From positions 1 to 45,720 of IMG/VR virus record IMGVR_UViG_3300028883_000016: a DNA stretch of 45,720 nt; one strand, 5' to 3'. Shown piece after piece: positions 7,227-20,871 of the stretch. Source of the stretch: a virus. Made by a program: the position numbers and the translations under genes. Below the pieces are notes generated by a model that was not told where the DNA came from, did not search any database, and saw only the letters and a program-made list of their open reading frames with translations. Each line of letters opens with the position of its first letter. The stretch's first letter is position 1.

Positions 7227-7303
7227 TGGCACCCCCAATAGGGTTCGAACCTATAACCTACGGTGTAGAAGACCGCTGTTCTATCCAATTGAACTATGGG
7301 GGT
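7227..7303 (-). tRNA. tRNA-Arg (anticodon TCT)
   Basis: 77 nt on the minus strand including an encoded CCA. Acceptor ACCCCCA pairs with TGGGGGT; the anticodon loop CTTCTAC reads TCT (AGA codons); the T loop TTCGAAC is canonical. It is last of three tandem tRNAs, 5 nt after tRNA-Trp. Confidence 0.95.
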
Positions 7304-7308
7304 ATTAC

Positions 7309-7383
7309 TGGCGGCCTAGTGAGGATTTGAACCCCAACCACAAGGTTTTGGAGACCTGTATGCTACCGTTACAACACTAAGCC
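7309..7383 (-). tRNA. tRNA-Trp (anticodon CCA)
   Basis: 75 nt on the minus strand with encoded 3' CCA. Acceptor GGCTTAG pairs with CTAGGCC (one G-U). Anticodon loop CTCCAAA gives CCA. The anticodon stem has a C-U mismatch at its base (27-43) and the D stem is weak, so it is slightly degenerate, but the T arm is intact. Confidence 0.92.
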
Positions 7384-7391
7384 ATTTTAAT

Positions 7392-7467
7392 TGGTGCATC
7401 CCCGTGGTATCGAACCACGTCCTCCAGCTTTTCAAACTGGCGCTTCTACCTAGTTAGCTTGAGATGC
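7392..7467 (-). tRNA. tRNA-Phe (anticodon GAA)
   Basis: 76 nt on the minus strand with encoded CCA. Acceptor GCATCTC pairs with GGGATGC (one U-G). Anticodon stem CCAGT/GCTGG with loop TTGAAAA gives GAA. First gene of the leftward late unit, about 100 nt downstream of the promoter element at 7574-7606. Confidence 0.95.
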
Positions 7468-7731: not shown

Positions 7732-8079
7732 TTAAGGCTCTGGCTCCCGCCGATTCATTATAGCACGTGCTAGGATCGCTGTCTATAGTGCAATGGTCTA
7801 ATTGCCAATGAGTGCTTATAGTGTCATGATGAAAGGTTTGCTTTTATATGTGAGTTATATTAGTCATCCCTGATGAAAACAGGTAGCCGCGTCGCGTGGC
7901 GTGGGATTATTTATAGTTACGTGCTTTGTGCTTAGCTCGCTAATGGGGGGGATCACTCGCCAACCCGCATAGCTACGGGCATCCTTGCCCTTCGCTCAAA
8001 TTATTTTTAAAAAAGACTGGACATCTGATTTGTACCCGACTACTATTGTAATCGTTCCCTGATACGAGGGACACTGATT

Positions 8080-9501: not shown

Positions 9502-9690
9502 ATGTGTATGAACTGCAATCATTCTTGGACTAAGCAATCAGAGTTTGTTTCTGAGACTGGGGTGGAACTGCTATACAGGACTAAGTGCGCGATACCCAGT
9601 AAAGATACGTCTCTACTAAGGGCAAAACATATAGTGGTATTAACATGCGACCGCTGCGGCGAAATTGTTAAGCTAGTGACTGAACTATAG
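9502..9690 (+). CDS. small zinc-ribbon-like protein
   Basis: 62 aa with CMNC near the N-terminus (residues 2-5) and CDRC near residues 49-52, a CxxC...CxxC pair typical of a zinc ribbon. A further Cys lies at position 29. The ATG follows the sequence AGGGGTGCTGATT also seen at 9070-9082. Such small zinc proteins in early regions may bind nucleic acid or a host enzyme. Followed directly by a hairpin. Confidence 0.65.
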   Translation: MCMNCNHSWTKQSEFVSETGVELLYRTKCAIPSKDTSLLRAKHIVVLTCDRCGEIVKLVTEL

Positions 9691-9711
9691 GGCGCAAGCG
9701 CGCCCCTATTG
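9690..9711 (+). terminator. hairpin after zinc-ribbon gene, weak terminator
   Basis: GGGCGC-AAGC-GCGCCC extended by ATA/TAT forms a stable stem directly after the stop codon. The following bases (TTGCTTATC) are only moderately T-rich. Confidence 0.5.
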
Positions 9712-10298: not shown

Positions 10299-10321
10299 GG
10301 GGGCTGCGCGCCCCCTTGTTT
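10299..10321 (+). terminator. intrinsic terminator after 169-aa gene
   Basis: GGGGGC (10299-10304) pairs with GCCCCC (10310-10315) around a TGCGC loop, followed by TTGTTT. It lies 11 nt after the stop. Confidence 0.75.
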
Positions 10322-11237: not shown

Positions 11238-11804
11238 ATGAAGTTCGCTCATATAGAATCTGGTGTGGAAGTAGGTGTTGACCATGCCGTTGCTCAGAGT
11301 TCTGGATTGACAGTAAAGTGCACCTATATGTATGCACTATCCAGTGAGGCTGCAAATGGAGCAAGTAAGACGCTTGAGCTTTCAGGTATGTTAGTGCGCT
11401 CTGATCCTGTGTGGTGGTTTACTGTTATTCGTGATGAAGACGGTGCTCCAATATTCAGCTTTCAGGTATCTCCCGGAAGCATGGGATGCTGTGGTGTGTA
11501 CTCAGTGGGCAAGCCTAGTCTCGTAGTAAACTCACGTGCTGTAGACCCAGAAGTAACTGAAGCCGCAGTCAACATAGGAATTTCAGCAGCACTGCGCCAC
11601 TTGAGTATATCAGCGCTGGTACAAGCAGACCACGAACGCTGGACTCCAGTACTGGGGCGCTGGAAAGGAGCTGTGATTAATATGCCAATGGCCGTGGTCA
11701 ATATGAACAGCAGAAATCCCATCAATATCTTTGCTTTTGTTCGCAAGGGATGTGATATTGTTCCTAATACACGCTACAAGGAGTATAAGGGTGGTACGTC
11801 TTAA
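11238..11804 (+). CDS. CCG-motif paralog A
   Basis: 188 aa; family not recognised. It aligns by eye with the proteins at 12624-13208 and 13205-13675: a GCCGVYSVGKPSL block near residue 80, then an EAAVNIGI helix, then ISALVQADH, and near the end a segment ending in NIFAFV and a Tyr-rich tail. It is the most divergent of the three. The frame is open further upstream but ATG 11238 directly follows the previous stop. Next to a gamma-glutamylcyclotransferase and ligase genes, it could be a substrate or partner of that pathway; this is inference. The conserved adjacent Cys pair suggests metal binding or a reactive thiol. Confidence 0.65.
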   Translation: MKFAHIESGVEVGVDHAVAQSSGLTVKCTYMYALSSEAANGASKTLELSGMLVRSDPVWWFTVIRDEDGAPIFSFQVSPGSMGCCGVYSVGKPSLVVNSRAVDPEVTEAAVNIGISAALRHLSISALVQADHERWTPVLGRWKGAVINMPMAVVNMNSRNPINIFAFVRKGCDIVPNTRYKEYKGGTS

Positions 11805-11940
11805 AGTAGTGCGCTCACCAAGTAAAGTTTATTGGTGGGTGGTACAAGAGGATGACCCCACGCACCCCATCGTTGTGTGCTCTCGTAAATGGGAAGCCCA
11901 ACAGGAGCGTGATCAATTAACTAAAAGTCTGGAGCTTTAA
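11791..11940 (+). CDS. small hypothetical protein, GTG start
   Basis: 49 aa. The GTG at 11791 lies 7 nt after AAGGAG, inside the end of the preceding gene (14-nt overlap). The sequence has aromatic beta-like character (SKVYWWVVQEDD) and a charged helical tail. The good ribosome site and tight spacing to the next gene (1 nt) support it. Confidence 0.5.
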   Translation: MVRLKVVRSPSKVYWWVVQEDDPTHPIVVCSRKWEAQQERDQLTKSLEL

Positions 11941-11941
11941 T

Positions 11942-12160
11942 ATGAAGAAAGGTCAACGTGTTAAGAGTCTTACTGGTAAGACAAAAGGTATGGTTGGTGT
12001 AGCGTCCCAGTGCATTGGTGCTACTGGTAGCGTAGTGCGGGTGGCAGTAACCTTTAGCTATGGCATTGGCAAGCGCACCTACTGGTTCAACCCTGAGAAC
12101 TTGCGGGTACTTAAAGATGGCAAAGCTAACAGCCCTTATGCTGGGGGTACTGCTACTTAG
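11942..12160 (+). CDS. small basic SH3/KOW-like protein
   Basis: 72 aa. The beginning (KKGQRVKSLTGKTKGMVG) and the later beta strands (GSVVRVAVTF; TYWFNPENLRVL) resemble a small SH3-type barrel such as KOW domains, which often bind RNA or transcription complexes. This is a resemblance by pattern only. Its last 44 nt overlap the lipoprotein gene in another frame. Confidence 0.6.
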   Translation: MKKGQRVKSLTGKTKGMVGVASQCIGATGSVVRVAVTFSYGIGKRTYWFNPENLRVLKDGKANSPYAGGTAT

Positions 12161-12239
12161 TGGATGCGCCAGCGCTGTAATCCAACCGGTGGGGCAGTCA
12201 CCTTACTGCCCTGTTGAATATAAATACTGTGGTATATAG
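12117..12239 (+). CDS. 40-aa lipoprotein, overlapping gene
   Basis: 40 aa. MAKLTALMLGVLLLSGC is a complete lipoprotein signal: Lys near the start, hydrophobic core, lipobox LSGC with the lipidated Cys at residue 17. The mature part is only 24 residues with two more Cys. It starts inside the preceding gene (44-nt overlap, different frame) and ends 8 nt before the cyclotransferase gene. A later in-frame ATG (12138) would lose the charged N-terminus. Size and form resemble small phage lipoproteins such as Rz1 spanins or T5 Llp; its early-strand location far from the endolysin favours a surface role over lysis. Confidence 0.6.
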   Translation: MAKLTALMLGVLLLSGCASAVIQPVGQSPYCPVEYKYCGI

Positions 12240-12247
12240 GTAACACA

Positions 12248-12634
12248 ATGAAAGATACAGATCTATTTGCTGTGTACGGAAGTCTTCGTAATGGCTTCGG
12301 GAATCATGGCATTATCGCACAGTTCAGCCCTGAACTAGTTTCTGTAGAGGCTTTGCATGGGTGGAAAATGGTTTCTATGGGGCCTTTCCCTGCCATTTAT
12401 AAGTCTAATGATCAGGAAGACTATGTGGTTGTTGAGGTGTACTCAGTACCAGCTGAGCTACACTCTCAAGCAGCGCAGTCTCTTGACTGGTTGGAGGGGT
12501 TCCCCGACTTCTATGACCGTGAGCTGGTAGACACAGACCACGGCAAGGCGTGGGTGTACTTCCGTGAAGAGCACGAGGTGCGTGGTCTTACTCCTGTTGA
12601 GTCCGGCGATTGGGTGGAATATTATGGTGCCTAA
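12248..12634 (+). CDS. gamma-glutamylcyclotransferase-like protein (GGCT/AIG2 fold)
   Basis: 128 aa. GGCT-fold enzymes release 5-oxoproline from gamma-glutamyl amines and peptides. The substrate-binding loop VYGSLR is at residues 9-14, PAIY at 48-51, and LDWLEGFPDFYDR at 79-91 carries the probable catalytic Glu (E83) in the place expected for this family. Length is usual. It is embedded between the CCG paralogs, 1 kb before the amidoligases, as in other phage and bacterial amide-ligation clusters, where it may edit or release gamma-glutamyl linkages. Fold is secure; substrate is unknown. Confidence 0.88.
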   Translation: MKDTDLFAVYGSLRNGFGNHGIIAQFSPELVSVEALHGWKMVSMGPFPAIYKSNDQEDYVVVEVYSVPAELHSQAAQSLDWLEGFPDFYDRELVDTDHGKAWVYFREEHEVRGLTPVESGDWVEYYGA

Positions 12635-13208
12635 ACTTATTGGTACAGAGACTGACGGCAGACAAGTGCGGTCAGTAACTACAACCAGAACTTATTCTAT
12701 TGGAGATAAGTTTGTGTTGGTTGAGGTGGAGCGTCCAAATGGCCGCACAGATATTACACTGGCGTACATCTCTAAGGGAAAGCCGCCTCTGGATGTTGCT
12801 ACAATTACGGTCACGAACTGCTTTTCTTGCTGTGGTGCTTTCGCAGTGTCTAGCCCGTGGCTGGCTAACCAGCGCGTATTAAATACAGCGAACCTTGATG
12901 TTAAGGAGGTGGTAAACACTATTATTAAAGGTGCCTTTGATGTGTACGACATCACTTACATGGTGCAGGTTGACCGCATTGGTCACAAGCTCAGCACGGT
13001 GGAGGGGGCGGTTGCTGAGAGAGGGCGGTGGGGAATTTTCGTAGACAACTACGATGGAACCATTACTCAGTTCCGCAACAGTCACAGAAATGTAGTGCCT
13101 AACCACTCGTCGGTACTTACTGGCATCGCGTTCGTAAATGATAAGGCTATGGTTGGTGGCACTTACCGTAACTATACTGGATCTTACAAAAAAGGTACAC
13201 TACAATGA
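12624..13208 (+). CDS. CCG-motif paralog B
   Basis: 194 aa. It shares with the next gene FSCCGA, AVS-PWLANQR, EVVN and MVQVDR, and even 17 identical bases coding for the WLANQ region. N-terminal ~65 residues are unlike the other paralogs (beta-rich, Arg/Thr/Val). ATG 12624 overlaps the cyclotransferase end by 11 nt after a GGTGGA site; the longer frame upstream is not needed. No transmembrane segment. Function unknown; close physical coupling to cyclotransferase and ligase suggests shared work. Confidence 0.7.
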   Translation: MVPKLIGTETDGRQVRSVTTTRTYSIGDKFVLVEVERPNGRTDITLAYISKGKPPLDVATITVTNCFSCCGAFAVSSPWLANQRVLNTANLDVKEVVNTIIKGAFDVYDITYMVQVDRIGHKLSTVEGAVAERGRWGIFVDNYDGTITQFRNSHRNVVPNHSSVLTGIAFVNDKAMVGGTYRNYTGSYKKGTLQ

Positions 13209-13675
13209 CAGTTAAATTTATCATTAAAGGCGCACTTCCTGGGAGATATGAACTGTTTGCTAATGAAACGCTCGTACTATGTATGAACGTGGCGTCAGCA
13301 TTCAGCTGCTGTGGCGCGCTCGCCGTGTCTGACCCTTGGCTGGCTAACCAGCGGGCTCTTGAGCCTATCGGATTAACCCAATCCGAAGTAGTAAACAGTG
13401 GCATACAACAACTGCTCCGTCACTTCGGTGTGTCTGCTTTGGTGCAGGTTGATCGTCTTTGTTGTTTGGGAGTGAAGAATGATTTCCGCATTGGATCAGA
13501 GCCCGGCCCATGGTCTGACATTGTAAGCCTGTGGGACGGCAAGTTTACTGAAGGTGATCTTCAGTTCCAGAATGTTAGCGAGGGAGACACTGCCCTTTCT
13601 ATGTTTGCATTCATTGATGAGTATGCTATCACTGAAGATAGCAGTCAACACCCTTATAAAGTAACTAAACAGTAG
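13205..13675 (+). CDS. CCG-motif paralog C
   Basis: 156 aa, starting at an ATGA overlap with paralog B. FSCCGALAVSDPWLANQRAL is at residues ~34-53, then SEVVN, FGVSALVQVDRLCC, a GPW segment, and near the end SMFAFIDEY. Compared with B it lacks the extra N-terminal part, so the shared core is about 130 residues starting just before the CC pair. The CCG and WLANQ blocks are the family signature. It precedes the first amidoligase by 12 nt. Confidence 0.7.
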   Translation: MTVKFIIKGALPGRYELFANETLVLCMNVASAFSCCGALAVSDPWLANQRALEPIGLTQSEVVNSGIQQLLRHFGVSALVQVDRLCCLGVKNDFRIGSEPGPWSDIVSLWDGKFTEGDLQFQNVSEGDTALSMFAFIDEYAITEDSSQHPYKVTKQ

Positions 13676-13687
13676 TAGGTGACTATC

Positions 13688-14473
13688 ATGTCTGACAAAA
13701 TTAAACTTGTATCTCTAGGTGCAGACCCTGAACTATTCCTTCGTGATGTAGCAACAGGTGAATTTGTGCCAGCGACTGGCCTTCTTGGTGGCAGTAAGGA
13801 CTCTCCTCGCCCGGTTAATAAAGGCGCTGTTCAAGAAGATAATGTACTCGCTGAGTTTAATATCGTTCCGGCCACAGATGCTCGCGCCTTCGTTGATAAC
13901 ATCATGACTGTACGTGAAGAGCTGAATAATATGGTTCGTCCGTATGATCTTACTACCTTCGTAACGTCCAGTCATATCTTTACTCACGATGCTCTGAAAG
14001 AGGCTGGCCCGATGGCGTTCGAGTTTGGCTGCGACCCAGACTTCAACGCATGGCTTGGTGGTGAGGTTAATCCTAAACCTGCATCCACCACTGACCTACG
14101 TACTGCCGGAGGTCACGTACACTTCGGCCTCGAAGGTGCCGACCTCGACATTAATCGTTTCATCCGTGTATGTGATGCTACACTGGGTGTTGTTGATGTA
14201 CTTACAGACCCCGAAGGTGCTGCACGGCGCGCCCTGTATGGCTGCGCTGGGGCGTATCGTCCAAAGCCATACGGTGTTGAGTACAGAACGCTGAGTAATG
14301 CGTGGCTGTCTGACTCGGATGCCATTGATCGTACATACCGCCTGTCGGAATACGCAGTGTCATTGTACAACTCCGGCTTTGATCCTAAACCTTCCATCCG
14401 TCAAGTAATTAATAGTGGTGATCGACAAGCGGCGCACCACGTGTACGCTGGACTACATCTTGGGAGAGTATAA
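13688..14473 (+). CDS. COOH-NH2 ligase type 2 (GS-like amidoligase)
   Basis: 261 aa. Members of this glutamine-synthetase-fold family are predicted to join a carboxylate to an amine using ATP. Visible family marks: LGADPELF (residues 10-17), QEDNVLAEFN (49-58), GGHVHFG (141-147) and VEYRTLSNAWL (197-207); the Glu, Asp and His in these blocks correspond to metal and ATP ligands. ATG 13688 follows TAGGTGACTATC; GTG 13679 in frame is an alternative. It leads the ligase genes, 2 nt before the 201-aa gene. Phages related to phiEco32 carry similar proteins. Substrates are not known. Confidence 0.88.
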   Translation: MSDKIKLVSLGADPELFLRDVATGEFVPATGLLGGSKDSPRPVNKGAVQEDNVLAEFNIVPATDARAFVDNIMTVREELNNMVRPYDLTTFVTSSHIFTHDALKEAGPMAFEFGCDPDFNAWLGGEVNPKPASTTDLRTAGGHVHFGLEGADLDINRFIRVCDATLGVVDVLTDPEGAARRALYGCAGAYRPKPYGVEYRTLSNAWLSDSDAIDRTYRLSEYAVSLYNSGFDPKPSIRQVINSGDRQAAHHVYAGLHLGRV

Positions 14474-14475
14474 CA

Positions 14476-15081
14476 ATGAAGCTAGTACCACTGGCTGGGT
14501 TTGAAACCCTACCCACTGCTCATGCTTGGGTAAATTACTTTGACTATCGTGTCTTGGGTGCACTAATGGTACTTGACGAGGACAAGGTAGTTATGGTAGA
14601 TGCTGTAGAACGGGACGGTGCGCGTATAGTAGTGACGGTCTTGGAACTAACTGGCCGCCGCGTAACTATCCCGCCAGAAGAACTGCACGAACGCCTAATG
14701 TTCTGGAAGCCTGAGCATGGGTACTACAACTCCCCAGCTGGCTTGTTAAAAGTGGAGGCGACTGATGTGGGGCGGGGGTATCAGCAGGGAATCCGCACTA
14801 ATTACCTACGTATCAGAGGAGTTGAGACTCAAATAGAATTGCGCGAGTCTTTCCGTAGCTTGTGTCAAATGGTATTTGATAACATCTCCACGTTTAGCAC
14901 TATCACTGAGGCACGAGAGTCTGACAACTTTGTGGCGATCACCCGTCACATTATAGGCAATGCTCGCGGTGCTATTGTTATGGGCGAGCGATCTATTACT
15001 AACTGGGATGCGGCCATGGCCGACGAGGATATTATTACTGACATCGAATTTGAAAGGGGGGATATTCCATGCCTAGTTTGA
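14476..15081 (+). CDS. unknown protein between the two amidoligases
   Basis: 201 aa, not recognised. The N-terminal half is beta-rich (ALMVLDEDKVVMVDAVERD), the C-terminal half mixed, ending in an acidic stretch (ADEDIITDIEFERGD) and CLV. No signal or membrane segment. It begins 2 nt after the first ligase and overlaps the second by 13 nt, so its translation is tied to both. Position makes it a candidate scaffold, carrier or acceptor protein for the ligases, though nothing in its sequence shows this. Confidence 0.65.
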   Translation: MKLVPLAGFETLPTAHAWVNYFDYRVLGALMVLDEDKVVMVDAVERDGARIVVTVLELTGRRVTIPPEELHERLMFWKPEHGYYNSPAGLLKVEATDVGRGYQQGIRTNYLRIRGVETQIELRESFRSLCQMVFDNISTFSTITEARESDNFVAITRHIIGNARGAIVMGERSITNWDAAMADEDIITDIEFERGDIPCLV

Positions 15082-16034
15082 TTGGTGACTTCGTAAATAT
15101 GCGCCACCCAGACCACAAAAATGTCGAGTCAACTGACAGCTTAGTGAGTGACGCTTACGTAGGTGTTGAAGTTGAGCTGGAGAATGCGTCTTTGCGCAGT
15201 GGCATCAGAATGTGGGAGATGCACGAAGAGGGTAGCTTAAAGAACGACGGGCGCGAGTGGGTATTCGCTCGCCCTTATGCAGGTGAGGATGTGGTAGCAG
15301 CAGTCAGCAACCTTGTCAGTGCATACGAAGGTAAGCAGGTTGTGTGCGGCCCGGATGGGTCAGTGCATGTGCATGTTGACGTGACTGATCTAACTATGGA
15401 TCAGCTGTTCCGTATGCTCAATCTGAGCTTTATGTTCGAGCCCCTGCTGTTCGATTGGATGAGTCCTGAACGAGGAACCAACCAATTTTGTCAGAAGCTT
15501 GGCAATAATTCACGGCGAGCCAGTTCAATTTGCAATGCTATTGCTACTGGTACTACTACTGGCGATGTTAACGGCGCAGTGGTAGCCCTGAGTAATCAAT
15601 CGTACAAGTATTCCGCCACCAATACATCACGTCTTCGTGATCTAGGAACGGTAGAGTACAGATTCCACCGCTCCTGCTGCGATTACGACGGGCTTATTCG
15701 CTTGATCAACGCTGTGTGTTGCCTGAAAGAAGCCGCTCGTGATACCCGCTGGGATGCAATCTCCCCTCACCGTGATGTTAAAGGGCGCACAGCAGCCTCA
15801 GTAATCATGCAGGTGTTTGGCAGTGTGATGGACGTAGAAGATTGCTCTATGTTTAAGGACGCTTTAGAGGAGGGCATTCACACCATCCGACAACTGAGTC
15901 TTCGTACCCGACGGCGCATTGATCGTCGTGAACAGGCGGGGTTTGTTGATCATCCACCTCGCCAAGGCACCACTGCACCACCGCGTCCTACGTGGGATGC
16001 TAATCCAGCAGATCTTTTCCAACCAGTAGTTTAA
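15069..16034 (+). CDS. amidoligase (Amidoligase_2 family, GS-like fold)
   Basis: 321 aa. Second, distinct GS-fold ligase. Motifs: GVEVELE (residues 32-38), EGSLKNDGREWVF (54-66), HVHVDV (100-105), and LGTVEYRFH (192-200), which match the metal- and ATP-binding strands of the family. The C-terminal ~45 residues are Arg- and Pro-rich and probably disordered. It overlaps the 201-aa gene by 13 nt. Together with the first ligase, the amidotransferase and ATP-grasp protein it forms a predicted peptide- or amide-forming pathway. Family call is firm, reaction inferred. Confidence 0.85.
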   Translation: MPSLIGDFVNMRHPDHKNVESTDSLVSDAYVGVEVELENASLRSGIRMWEMHEEGSLKNDGREWVFARPYAGEDVVAAVSNLVSAYEGKQVVCGPDGSVHVHVDVTDLTMDQLFRMLNLSFMFEPLLFDWMSPERGTNQFCQKLGNNSRRASSICNAIATGTTTGDVNGAVVALSNQSYKYSATNTSRLRDLGTVEYRFHRSCCDYDGLIRLINAVCCLKEAARDTRWDAISPHRDVKGRTAASVIMQVFGSVMDVEDCSMFKDALEEGIHTIRQLSLRTRRRIDRREQAGFVDHPPRQGTTAPPRPTWDANPADLFQPVV

Positions 16035-16047
16035 AGGTAAATTAATT

Positions 16048-17367
16048 ATGTGTGGTATTGTAGGCGTAATTGGAGCACTGTCTGCTCCTAGAATCAAGCT
16101 GTTTAAGCACATGCTAGTTGCTGATGTAGTCCGTGGAAAGCACTCTACAGGTGTGTTTTCCATTGACAAGAAGGGCGGCATGTCTTATGTTAAGCGCGCA
16201 GTTAACGGCGGTCGCTTTGTGATGGATGATAATATCGACGAACTCCCTAAAGGTTGGGAGTCTAACTCTCGCTGTATCATTGGTCACAACCGTGCGGCTA
16301 CCGTAGGATCAGTTACAACAGACAACGCACACCCATTCATGTTTAATAATGTGGTTGGTGTGCATAATGGTACTCTGGATTCTGAGGCGGGGCTTGTGTC
16401 TACTCTCGCTGACGGTACTAAGATATCTGTGGACTCGCAGAAGATCTACGCAACAATGGATGTGACAAAGCCTGAAGACATTCCTACCCTGTTAGAATCT
16501 CTGGAAGGGGCGTACACCCTCGTGTGGAGTGATACACGGACAGGCCGTATTCACATGGCGAGAAACCGAGAGCGTCCACTGTCATTGGGTCACACCCCAA
16601 GCAGTATTATGCTGGCATCTGAGATGGGCATGCTTACGTGGCTAGTAGAAAAGTCACTGGGCGAGCATGTTAAGCCTGAGTATGAGTCTCTTCCAGTAGG
16701 TGAGATCTGGTCGTTCGATCCTACTGCTGACAACCCCTACTCCACTCTTGAAATTACCAAATTCAAGCCAGCAGCTCCCTTCATTACGTACAAGAGCCTA
16801 TACGGAGGCAATGCGTACTCATCAAAAAAGGACAGTACGACTACGGGTTCGGGTGGGACTGGTAATGTCGTAAAACACGGTCGTGCACTCACTCACCCAC
16901 TTACAGCAGTTGATAAGTTCGTACTGACAGACTTCACATCCAAGTTGTCAGACTATAAAGAGTGCCCGTGGTTATATGACAAAGGCGAATGTAATGAATC
17001 CTATGGTAATCCACTGGACTACGCCCATCGTTACTCGGCTGAGCAGTTAAACAGCCTGCCAGTAGTGTCTATCCTACACCCAATAGCTGCGGAGCTTTCC
17101 AGTCCTACTGGTCTGACGTGCACGTTATTCTGTGTGGATGACGAGGGCTTTGTCTGGGCTCTGCGCTATATGCACTTAGTTAATGTGCACATAGATAAGG
17201 CGTATGTCGTAGACCTGTCCAAGTGCCATCAGAAGTCATGCTATATCATGACATCAAGCACAGGAGCACGAGGTATAAGCTGTTCCTGCGAAGTTATTAC
17301 TGGCATCTGTGATTATCAAACACTTTATGCCCCCGAAAATAAAGATGACTCTGGAGTACCAGCATGA
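16048..17367 (+). CDS. class II glutamine amidotransferase with Cys-rich C-terminal extension
   Basis: 439 aa. The Ntn-type glutaminase domain occupies residues 1 to ~230: Cys2 of MCGIVGVIG becomes the N-terminal nucleophile after Met removal; HNRAATVG (~75-82), HNGTLDS (~108-114) and DSQKIYATM (~130) are the glutamine-binding and oxyanion blocks. It hydrolyses glutamine to release ammonia. A Ser/Gly/Thr linker (~275-290) leads to an unknown domain of ~150 residues with many Cys (CPWLYDKGEC, CHQKSC, SCSC), perhaps metal-binding. No synthetase or phosphosugar isomerase domain is fused, so the acceptor partner must be another protein, likely the ligases beside it. Stop overlaps the next ATG. 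Confidence 0.9.
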   Translation: MCGIVGVIGALSAPRIKLFKHMLVADVVRGKHSTGVFSIDKKGGMSYVKRAVNGGRFVMDDNIDELPKGWESNSRCIIGHNRAATVGSVTTDNAHPFMFNNVVGVHNGTLDSEAGLVSTLADGTKISVDSQKIYATMDVTKPEDIPTLLESLEGAYTLVWSDTRTGRIHMARNRERPLSLGHTPSSIMLASEMGMLTWLVEKSLGEHVKPEYESLPVGEIWSFDPTADNPYSTLEITKFKPAAPFITYKSLYGGNAYSSKKDSTTTGSGGTGNVVKHGRALTHPLTAVDKFVLTDFTSKLSDYKECPWLYDKGECNESYGNPLDYAHRYSAEQLNSLPVVSILHPIAAELSSPTGLTCTLFCVDDEGFVWALRYMHLVNVHIDKAYVVDLSKCHQKSCYIMTSSTGARGISCSCEVITGICDYQTLYAPENKDDSGVPA

Positions 17368-18173
17368 GTATCAACAGAATCCGAATTGTCCCATACAAAA
17401 TGACATCTGCTACTGCAAATGCCCTGCAAACGTGGCTACGTGCCAATCTACCGGACGGTGCACAAAGGAGTGTGCTACGTGTACGAACTGACGGGCGGTA
17501 TGCCCCGCTCGATGATGACATGTTGATCAACTGGGGCTGTAATTCCCTGCCTGAAAAGTTTGGCGGTGTAGGATTGCTACTAAACCACCCAGACATCGTG
17601 GCACGTGCATCAAACAAGTCAGCAGCATTCGCTGTGTTTAAGGAGGCAGGCGTATCTACTCTGGAGACTACGAGTGACCCTGCTGTTGCTGATACGTGGC
17701 TCGCAGATGGAGAAGTGGTGGTTGCCCGCCGACTACTCCGAGCATCTGGTGGTCGCGGTATAGAGTTGTGCACTCCAGAAGGCATGGATCGTGTGGTCAA
17801 AGCACCTCTGTACACCAAGTACATTAAGAAGGCAGCTGAGTACCGAGTGCATGTCCTTCCTAACGGTTCAATCATCCTCAACCAGAAGCGAAGAAAGGCA
17901 GATGTTCCAGATGATGAGGTTGACTGGAAGATTCGTAACCACGACCGTGGCTGGATCATGGCACGAGATAACGTAGATCCCTGCCCTGCTGCTGAGGCCG
18001 AGGCTGTTAAAGCAATCGAAGCTCTGGGACTGAACTTCGGCGCAGTCGATGTGATCTACAATGCTCACCGAGATGCAGCCTACGTTCTTGAAGTTAACAC
18101 AGCTCCCGGCCTAGAGGGCTCATTAGTTGATGCGTATGGACAGGCGTTGATTGAGGTTATGTTACAAAACTAA
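17364..18173 (+). CDS. ATP-grasp ligase (RimK-like)
   Basis: 269 aa, translationally coupled to the amidotransferase by an ATGA overlap. ATP-grasp enzymes activate a carboxylate as acylphosphate and join it to an amine. N-terminal part (residues 1-90) is the substrate lid; a Gly-rich loop RASGGRG lies near 131-137; KKAAEYRVHV near 153-162; the metal-binding end reads NFGAVDVIYN...YVLEVNTAPGLEG (~218-248), with Glu and Asn ligands. Length is close to short RimK/TTL-like ligases. It closes the cassette; about 100 nt follow with the promoter of the sigma-like gene. Confidence 0.9.
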   Translation: MSINRIRIVPYKMTSATANALQTWLRANLPDGAQRSVLRVRTDGRYAPLDDDMLINWGCNSLPEKFGGVGLLLNHPDIVARASNKSAAFAVFKEAGVSTLETTSDPAVADTWLADGEVVVARRLLRASGGRGIELCTPEGMDRVVKAPLYTKYIKKAAEYRVHVLPNGSIILNQKRRKADVPDDEVDWKIRNHDRGWIMARDNVDPCPAAEAEAVKAIEALGLNFGAVDVIYNAHRDAAYVLEVNTAPGLEGSLVDAYGQALIEVMLQN

Positions 18174-18276: not shown

Positions 18277-18804
18277 ATGAATACAAACGCTATCATTGAT
18301 CAGTTCTCCCCATTGATCTATAGAGTAAGTCATACAGTATCTAAGCACCCCAAAGTGCTGGATGATAACGCAGTGAGTACTGATGATGTTATACAGCAGT
18401 GCTTTACAGAGGCGCTGGATGTAATCCGGTACTATCGTGAGGGAGGTGTGTCACTTAAACTGTGGCTGCAAGTTAACCTTGAGCAGCGCATGAGTAAGTG
18501 GGCACGCTCACTCGGCACAGTCTCTACCGCTCCAATATATGATGAGTCAGACATAGATGAGGAAGATAAAGAGCCTCTCTATGAGGACGATCCTACCATC
18601 CGTATGGATGCCGCGCGCATCCTGTCACTACTGCCAAAGTCACATGCAGAAACACTACGCATGATGTTTGGTATTGATCTGGAATCCCCACTAAGCCTAG
18701 AAGGCATCTCCAAAGTACGAGGAATATCTGTTTCCGAGGCCCGCCGCTTTACTTTCCACACAATCAACATGGCACGTGCATTGTCAGAAGGACGTTTATC
18801 ATGA
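18277..18804 (+). CDS. ECF-like RNA polymerase sigma factor
   Basis: 175 aa. Region 2-like helices at residues ~1-80 (LIYRVSHTV, DVIQQCFTEALDVI, then a basic stretch LEQRMSKWARSL that would hold the -10), an acidic linker (DESDIDEEDKEPLYEDD, 89-105) and a region 4-like helix-turn-helix at ~110-170 (LLPKSHAETLRMMFGI...LEGISKVRGISVSEARRF). Size equals small ECF sigma factors. phiEco32 encodes a sigma-like factor for its late genes, so the analogy is apt. Its own promoter shares an element with the late tRNA unit and the nucleotide operon, suggesting self-activation. ATG follows AAAAGGATAAGAC. Confidence 0.78.
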   Translation: MNTNAIIDQFSPLIYRVSHTVSKHPKVLDDNAVSTDDVIQQCFTEALDVIRYYREGGVSLKLWLQVNLEQRMSKWARSLGTVSTAPIYDESDIDEEDKEPLYEDDPTIRMDAARILSLLPKSHAETLRMMFGIDLESPLSLEGISKVRGISVSEARRFTFHTINMARALSEGRLS

Positions 18805-19852: not shown

Positions 19853-20647
19853 GTGCGACTCAATAACAAACAATTACTGGAACTGCCATCGCTATGCGAA
19901 GGTGAGACTGTATGCTGCACGTGCCCCGCCTGTGGCCGCAGCAAATTCTACGTGTCGGTGCGAGATGGTGTAACACTATATTGCTGCCACCGCGCAAGCT
20001 GCGGTGCGCGTGGTATGGTAGGGGCCAACCCACACAATAAGGTGGACGAGGGATATAACAAGCCGAAGAGTAAGTATGTGCCTCACCCTGACAGATCCCT
20101 GAACATAGAAGAGATAGCTGCGCTAACTGCTAAGTTTCCATGGTGGGTTAATTGTAAGCACTTATCTGTTGACAGATCTACAAAACGTGTGTTACTTCCA
20201 CTGTCAGACCACAACAGGGAGAATATAGGCTACGTGTCTAGGCACTGGCCTGATGTTTGTGGTTATAACACGAGGGCACCAAAAGCCTTAGTGTGGTTAC
20301 GTGATCCAAACCCGCCCTCAAAGTTGGGGTTCATGCGTCGGTATGCTGGTGAGGACACAGCATATCTATTCGAGGACTGGGTGTCAGCAGAGCGTGTAAA
20401 CCTATACACCGACAAGCTGTGCATTATATTAGGGGGCACATCAATATCTAGTAGTGACATTGTATATCTGCGCAAGCTGGGCATAAAGCACCTTGTTACC
20501 TGCTTGGACACGGACGCAAGACACAAAGCAGCAGTTATACAGAAGCAGTGCGCCATGCTGTTTTCTTCAGTTACCACAAAGTTCTGGGATAGGGATGAAG
20601 ATCCAAAGGACATGGACGATGATTACTTTAGTGAGGTGTTCCTATGA
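19853..20647 (+). CDS. DNA primase (zinc ribbon plus TOPRIM-like)
   Basis: 264 aa. N-terminal zinc ribbon: CTCPACG (residues ~23-29) and CCHRASCGARG (~44-54). The C-terminal half has a TOPRIM-like order: LCIILGGTSISSSD near 190, then LVTCLDTDARHKA (DxD) near 215 and an acidic end (DRDEDPKDMDDD). It would lay RNA primers for the polymerase at 22795 with the helicase at 20887. GTG 19853 follows AAAAGGAGTGACAT; an ATG two bases earlier is out of frame. Separate primase and helicase genes differ from T7, which fuses them. The acidic triad of catalytic TOPRIM domains is plausible but short, so a Zn-bound primase-like accessory is an alternative. Confidence 0.8.
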   Translation: MRLNNKQLLELPSLCEGETVCCTCPACGRSKFYVSVRDGVTLYCCHRASCGARGMVGANPHNKVDEGYNKPKSKYVPHPDRSLNIEEIAALTAKFPWWVNCKHLSVDRSTKRVLLPLSDHNRENIGYVSRHWPDVCGYNTRAPKALVWLRDPNPPSKLGFMRRYAGEDTAYLFEDWVSAERVNLYTDKLCIILGGTSISSSDIVYLRKLGIKHLVTCLDTDARHKAAVIQKQCAMLFSSVTTKFWDRDEDPKDMDDDYFSEVFL

Positions 20648-20871
20648 AATACATACTTGCTGTTGCAATGGCCGTGTTACTGTCTGCATGTAGTGATGAA
20701 TACGCAACTAATGATGAGATAAAGTACGCTGAGGAGCTGTGTAGTATCAACGATGGCTTGGTAAAGTTGTACCCGTCTACCAGCAGCAGGCAAGTTGTTA
20801 AATGCTCCAACGGCGCATCATTTTCTTTTTACTTCAACCCAACAGACGGTAAATTTGTTACCGCTAAATAA
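20644..20871 (+). CDS. small lipoprotein
   Basis: 75 aa with a textbook lipoprotein signal: MKYILAVAMAVLLSAC, lipobox LSAC, lipidated Cys at residue 16, then Ser-Asp. An Asp directly after (S-D-E) is not at +2, so outer-membrane sorting is likely. Mature part ~60 residues with two further Cys that could form a disulfide. It is coupled by ATGA to the primase and sits inside replication genes. Possible role: blocking superinfection or altering the envelope; unproven. Confidence 0.7.
   Translation: MKYILAVAMAVLLSACSDEYATNDEIKYAEELCSINDGLVKLYPSTSSRQVVKCSNGASFSFYFNPTDGKFVTAK

Follow-up and report, generated by a model that had tools for sequence, protein, structure and literature searches.

The window, a 45,720-base virus record (IMGVR_UViG_3300028883_000016), carries at positions 11238-18173 a cassette of open reading frames (ORFs) that all run in one direction on the + strand. 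The original prediction placed five tightly packed enzyme families here: a COOH-NH2 ligase type 2 (CNL), an Amidoligase_2 (AL2), a class II glutaminase or GATase (GAT), an ATP-grasp ligase, and a gamma-glutamylcyclotransferase (GGCT). Pfam, PHROG, and profile matches recovered all five. The unrecognised proteins that it also mentioned are an unnamed protein, U (14476-15081), and three paralogs with a common Cys-Cys-Gly (CCG) motif. In gene order, the features are as follows.

11238..11804, + strand: CCG paralog a, 188 aa; CCG motif; candidate member of the CCG profile family
12248..12634, + strand: GGCT/AIG2 (PF06094, 2e-19); YGSL and E83 intact
about 12624..13208, + strand: CCG paralog b; start codon inferred; GNAT fold in the AlphaFold2 model, without the acetyl-CoA loop motif
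13205..13675, + strand: CCG paralog c, 156 aa; CCG motif; ends 3 bases 5' of the CNL ORF
13679..14473, + strand: CNL (PF14395, 2.3e-13; phrog_3815, 2.7e-76)
14476..15081, + strand: U, ~200 aa, unnamed; in the slot between CNL and AL2; modelled small beta-barrel at the N terminus
15069..16034, + strand: AL2 (PF12224, 5e-7; phrog_7469, 6e-40)
16048..17367, + strand: GAT (PF13522, 8e-14); Cys2 nucleophile
17364..18173, + strand: RimK-like ATP-grasp ligase (phrog_2599, 5e-79; RimK structures by profile, 5e-8)

From the GGCT gene onward, adjacent genes overlap by 4 to 13 bases or are separated by gaps of 2 to 13 bases. CCG paralog a lies ~440 bases 5' of the GGCT gene, with small ORFs in between, and the CNL ORF could start at a GTG (13679) or at an in-frame ATG (13688). 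Neither a nucleotide search of the window against phage records nor PADLOC returned a match.

Family motifs of the cassette enzymes

We aligned each window protein with 23 to 59 relatives per family, drawn from 58 loci (56 IMG/VR contigs, phage Bjorn, and Vibrio phage 1.293.O), and took note of the columns that were at least 85% conserved. Judged by these alignments, the cassette enzymes keep the motif residues conserved in their families, residues whose catalytic role we take to be that known for each family. CNL scores 50.4 bits against PF14395 (curated cut-off, 25) and retains D16, E18, H146, H148, R183, R194, K196, E201, and R203. GAT scores 52.2 bits against PF13522 (cut-off, 27) and retains the Cys2 nucleophile and the glutamine-site residues R82, N107, G108, and D129; its C-terminal part (~190 aa, 16798-17364) matches no Pfam family and keeps the conserved cysteines C358, C362, and C393. 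GGCT scores 70.7 bits against PF06094 (cut-off, 22.8), with Y10-G11-S12-L13 and E83 present.

AL2 scores 30.2 bits against PF12224 (curated cut-off, 22) and retains E34/E36/E38, H100, H102, R135, N185, E196, and R198. At two columns that are at least 95% conserved, however, D96 and L212 replace the R and W of nearly all relatives, so the activity of AL2 may be altered. A PDB sequence search with the AL2 profile gave no convincing match. The ATP-grasp protein keeps the Mg ligands D229/E243/N245, as well as K85 and R122, and matches RimK structures by profile at 5e-8 to 3e-7. In this it is like the RimK family of alpha-L-glutamate ligases, yet it does not reach the curated score threshold of either Pfam RimK or TIGR00768.

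Co-occurrence in related phages

Four core enzymes (CNL, AL2, GATase, and ATP-grasp) are almost always found together. Across the 58 loci, which were collected via CNL, AL2 is present in 58/58, ATP-grasp in 56/58, GATase in 55/58, and GGCT in 23/58. The order CNL-U-AL2 is fixed in almost all of them, while the positions of GAT and ATP-grasp vary around it. Because this sample had been collected through CNL itself, we re-sampled through the neighbouring primase, 0.2 to 2.7 kb upstream of which the cassette lies in many relatives. The core was found in one primase clade wherever the upstream DNA suffices; none of it was found in a divergent primase clade (L110-L140), many of whose contigs are short. 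In genome assemblies, the ligase occurs on 11 MAG contigs, 10 of which carry other cassette genes. Since contigs and flanks are partial, absences from any of these samples are not firm. The original prediction had named as counterevidence homologous phages in which these genes never occur together; instead, the core stands together in nearly all 58 relatives and in the primase-anchored sample. Its central claim, a cassette for peptide or amide ligation, thus gains support from this co-occurrence and from the intact motifs.

The prediction had also held that the set is larger than those already known, and this does not stand. The LUZ24-like Pseudomonas phages tf (gp19-gp25) and UFV-P2 (ORF21-29) and the Pseudomonas phage Bjorn (gp20-26) carry the same order of CNL, a U-slot protein of 186 to 200 aa, AL2, GATase, and ATP-grasp, together with a GGCT, and a test against this tf/LUZ24-type cassette found the same content and core order in the window. 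The window differs in that its GGCT gene lies upstream of the core, whereas that of the tf type lies downstream, and in that its cassette is flanked by the three CCG (GNAT-like) paralogs. The idea of such a ligation cassette was itself published earlier: PMC10580990 credits Iyer et al. 2009 (Mol Biosyst 5:1636) with predicting, for phiEco32, a role in cell-wall modification against superinfection. Compared at the level of enzyme classes, the amidoligase operons of phiEco32-type phages agree with the window, and a paper on TC6 reports the same kinds of annotation (PMC6209634). Given the six genes shared with tf, UFV-P2, and Bjorn and the role for which Iyer et al. 2009 is cited, the cassette is not a new set. 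What we may add is the always-present U slot and the link to GNAT-like CCG proteins. Phages that infect Pseudomonas, Escherichia, Salmonella, and Vibrio retain the putative pathway.

The U and CCG proteins

A single ORF separates CNL from AL2 in all 58 loci, and for this reason U looks obligatory. The window U matches a profile of the other U proteins at 1.9e-10 (12 sequences searched), although U sequences are highly divergent (9-22% identity). Several relatives' U proteins belong to phrog_11055 or phrog_4877, both without a named function; UFV-P2 ORF22 and tf gp20 occupy the same slot. An AlphaFold2 model of U (pLDDT 77) has a small beta-barrel at the N terminus. Compared with PDB chains, the model received no clear fold assignment (Z ≤ 5.8), and its significant viral matches carry no function annotation. 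Among many other small barrels, the N-terminal barrel superposes weakly on RNA-polymerase-binding domains (best Z, 5.8). U would probably serve CNL and AL2 as a scaffold or as a subunit common to both.

The CCG paralogs were approached through structure and distribution. An AlphaFold2 model of paralog b, run with an alignment of 17 CCG proteins (pLDDT 77.9, pTM 0.76), has a GNAT fold: nearly all of its top Foldseek and VIA-align matches are GNAT-type acyltransferases, the best being RimL (Z 9.5 over 127 residues, 3.5 A). Paralog b lacks the pyrophosphate loop for acetyl-CoA (Q/R-x-x-G-x-G/A); after strand 72-80 the sequence reads PWLANQRVLNTAN, without G-x-G/A. It may therefore not be an ordinary acetyltransferase. 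On another contig, a CCG protein encoded just upstream of the ligase (L014:7499-8005) has an acetyl-CoA-type loop, RRKGVG. Pfam gave only sub-threshold hits for the CCG proteins, to GNAT in the case of L014, and a PDB sequence search with CCG profiles gave no convincing match.

CCG tripeptides exceed expectation in loci with the window-like gene order (7 observed, 1.3 expected) and in other cassette loci (27 observed, 6.6 expected); loci that lack the cassette hold 1 against 2.7 expected. When IMG/VR was scanned with a DNA pattern and the ORFs at the matches were read, 23 contigs proved to carry genuine CCG-family ORFs, and another 13 contigs had matched by chance. Cassette genes lie on 21 of the 23 (CNL on 17, and ATP-grasp on 4 more that are short or carry it near a contig end), while CNL, ATP-grasp, or AL2 lies on none of the 13. 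Fisher's test gives 5e-8, or 3e-5 once near-identical contigs are merged by eye, for sequences that are related and a pattern that was chosen after cassette-locus examples had been seen. Elsewhere in IMG/VR, then, proteins matching the CCG profile sit almost only on cassette contigs, though most cassettes are without them: the profile matched 14 of 54 whole cassette records and found nothing in the other 40, which include 10/10 isolates tested. The original prediction had proposed a neighbourhood search for the five families together with the CCG paralogs. The core families do co-occur, but we reject CCG proteins as a general part of the cassette, only 14/54 records matching the profile. The constant U and the CCG proteins that are nearly confined to cassette contigs offer concrete partners for joint tests and a minimal gene set.

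The link of the window paralogs to the wider CCG family rests on motif, position, and fold, because their profile scores are not above those of motif-preserving shuffles (as high in 27/500 for paralog a, 403/500 for b, and 260/500 for c). By hhalign, the alignment of the trio with the family is limited to the motif. The L014 protein matches the profile beyond the motif, with 0/500 shuffles scoring as high. A pattern search of viral contigs for relatives of paralog c found none, and neither did tblastn in phages with paralog c and two CCG-family proteins of other contigs. The two genes before the ligase in UFV-P2 (L201:642-2357) and tf (L202:1-1790) encode short N-terminal motifs that resemble one another (HGSCFG, WGNCWG, YTCCFAG, and HYSCFG), and their products are possibly distant CCG-type proteins; Pfam assigned no family to the two UFV-P2 ORFs or to tf gp18.

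A predicted pathway of amide bond formation

We give somewhat better than even chances to an early-expressed phage pathway of ATP-dependent amide bond formation, whose predicted product is either a small compound of gamma-glutamyl or peptide type or a cell-envelope peptide precursor in amidated form. The glutaminase would release ammonia from glutamine, and CNL and AL2 would activate a carboxylate with ATP and couple it to ammonia or another amine. The RimK-like ATP-grasp enzyme would attach an amino acid, probably glutamate, and U would probably bridge the two COOH-NH2 ligases. Where it is carried, GGCT would take off a gamma-glutamyl group, much as BtrG does in butirosin synthesis, and the product would most likely alter the infected host. 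What the analysis shows is the genes themselves, their intact motifs, their co-occurrence, and the GNAT-like model of one CCG paralog. We infer the order of these steps, what U and the CCG proteins do, the product, and its target; the gamma-glutamyl tag and the host target of the original prediction are likewise hypothetical.

GGCT enzymes and glutamate-cysteine-ligase-like enzymes both act on small compounds, the former on small gamma-glutamyl compounds, and it is for this reason that we favour a small gamma-glutamyl or envelope-peptide product. In the butirosin side-chain pathway, BtrJ is an ATP-grasp enzyme and BtrG a GGCT. The window likewise pairs an ATP-grasp ligase with a gamma-glutamylcyclotransferase, and the tf GGCT is annotated as BtrG-like, but no carrier protein or aminoglycoside substrate was recognised in the window. 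Three points count against the pathway: the AL2 substitutions, the likeness to RimK, which fits protein modification equally well, and the recovery of GGCT from only a minority of loci. Early expression, which the original prediction had supposed, is plausible, since proteomics of a relative, the E. coli phage SU10 (a PEG-precipitated preparation), places ATP-grasp, GATase, and YtfP (GGCT-like) among the early gene products (PMC4281155).

Protein modification is the main rival to a small-product pathway. A host protein, such as a ribosomal protein or RNA polymerase, may receive glutamate or a peptide from the RimK-like and COOH-NH2 ligases, with the GNAT-like CCG proteins as further modifiers or adaptors. 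RimK, to which the ATP-grasp enzyme is closest by profile, is a protein modifier; the U barrel has its weak resemblance to RNA-polymerase-binding domains; and RNA polymerase is a known target of modification by phage GNATs (Rac, reviewed in PMC7824862). That resemblance, however, lies in the Z range of common arrangements, a RimK-type tag needs less than two amidoligases and a glutaminase, and the small substrates of GGCT enzymes argue the other way. We regard modification of a host protein as possible but rather less than probable.

In a bolder form of the pathway, U and the GNAT-fold CCG proteins would both belong to it as dedicated components: U as the obligatory scaffold for CNL and AL2, and the CCG proteins, in their several copies, as acceptors or specificity factors of a hitherto undescribed multi-protein ligation machine. 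We consider this unlikely.

Amino-acid-type hypermodification of phage DNA bases might be suspected from the proximity of the primase gene in many relatives, but by eye we recognised no enzymes for 7-deazaguanine or hydroxymethyl-base precursors among the window ORFs, and HaeIII has been used to digest the DNA of tf, which has the same cassette (PMC3517423), making this reading very improbable. We find it equally improbable that the genes are in decay or only transiently carried and share no function, a notion to which the divergence of U and the unusual AL2 substitutions might point, given that the motifs remain intact and that dozens of divergent phages retain this core.

Several further features lie around the cassette. 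Directly 3' of it, 18277-18804 encodes a sigma-factor-like protein (phrog_1740, 1.5e-5; Pfam sigma-70 region 2 below cut-off), and two small proteins whose signal sequences are of the lipoprotein type (LLSGC and VLLSAC) are encoded at 12117-12239 and 20644-20871. Promoter-like sites at 8018, 8085, and 8287 precede the rightward gene block, at a frequency in the scanned region no higher than in shuffles. Hairpins of six pairs, all G-C, lie between small early genes at 9690-9705 and 10299-10315, and tRNA genes for Phe, Trp, and Arg stand in tandem at 7227-7467 on the - strand.
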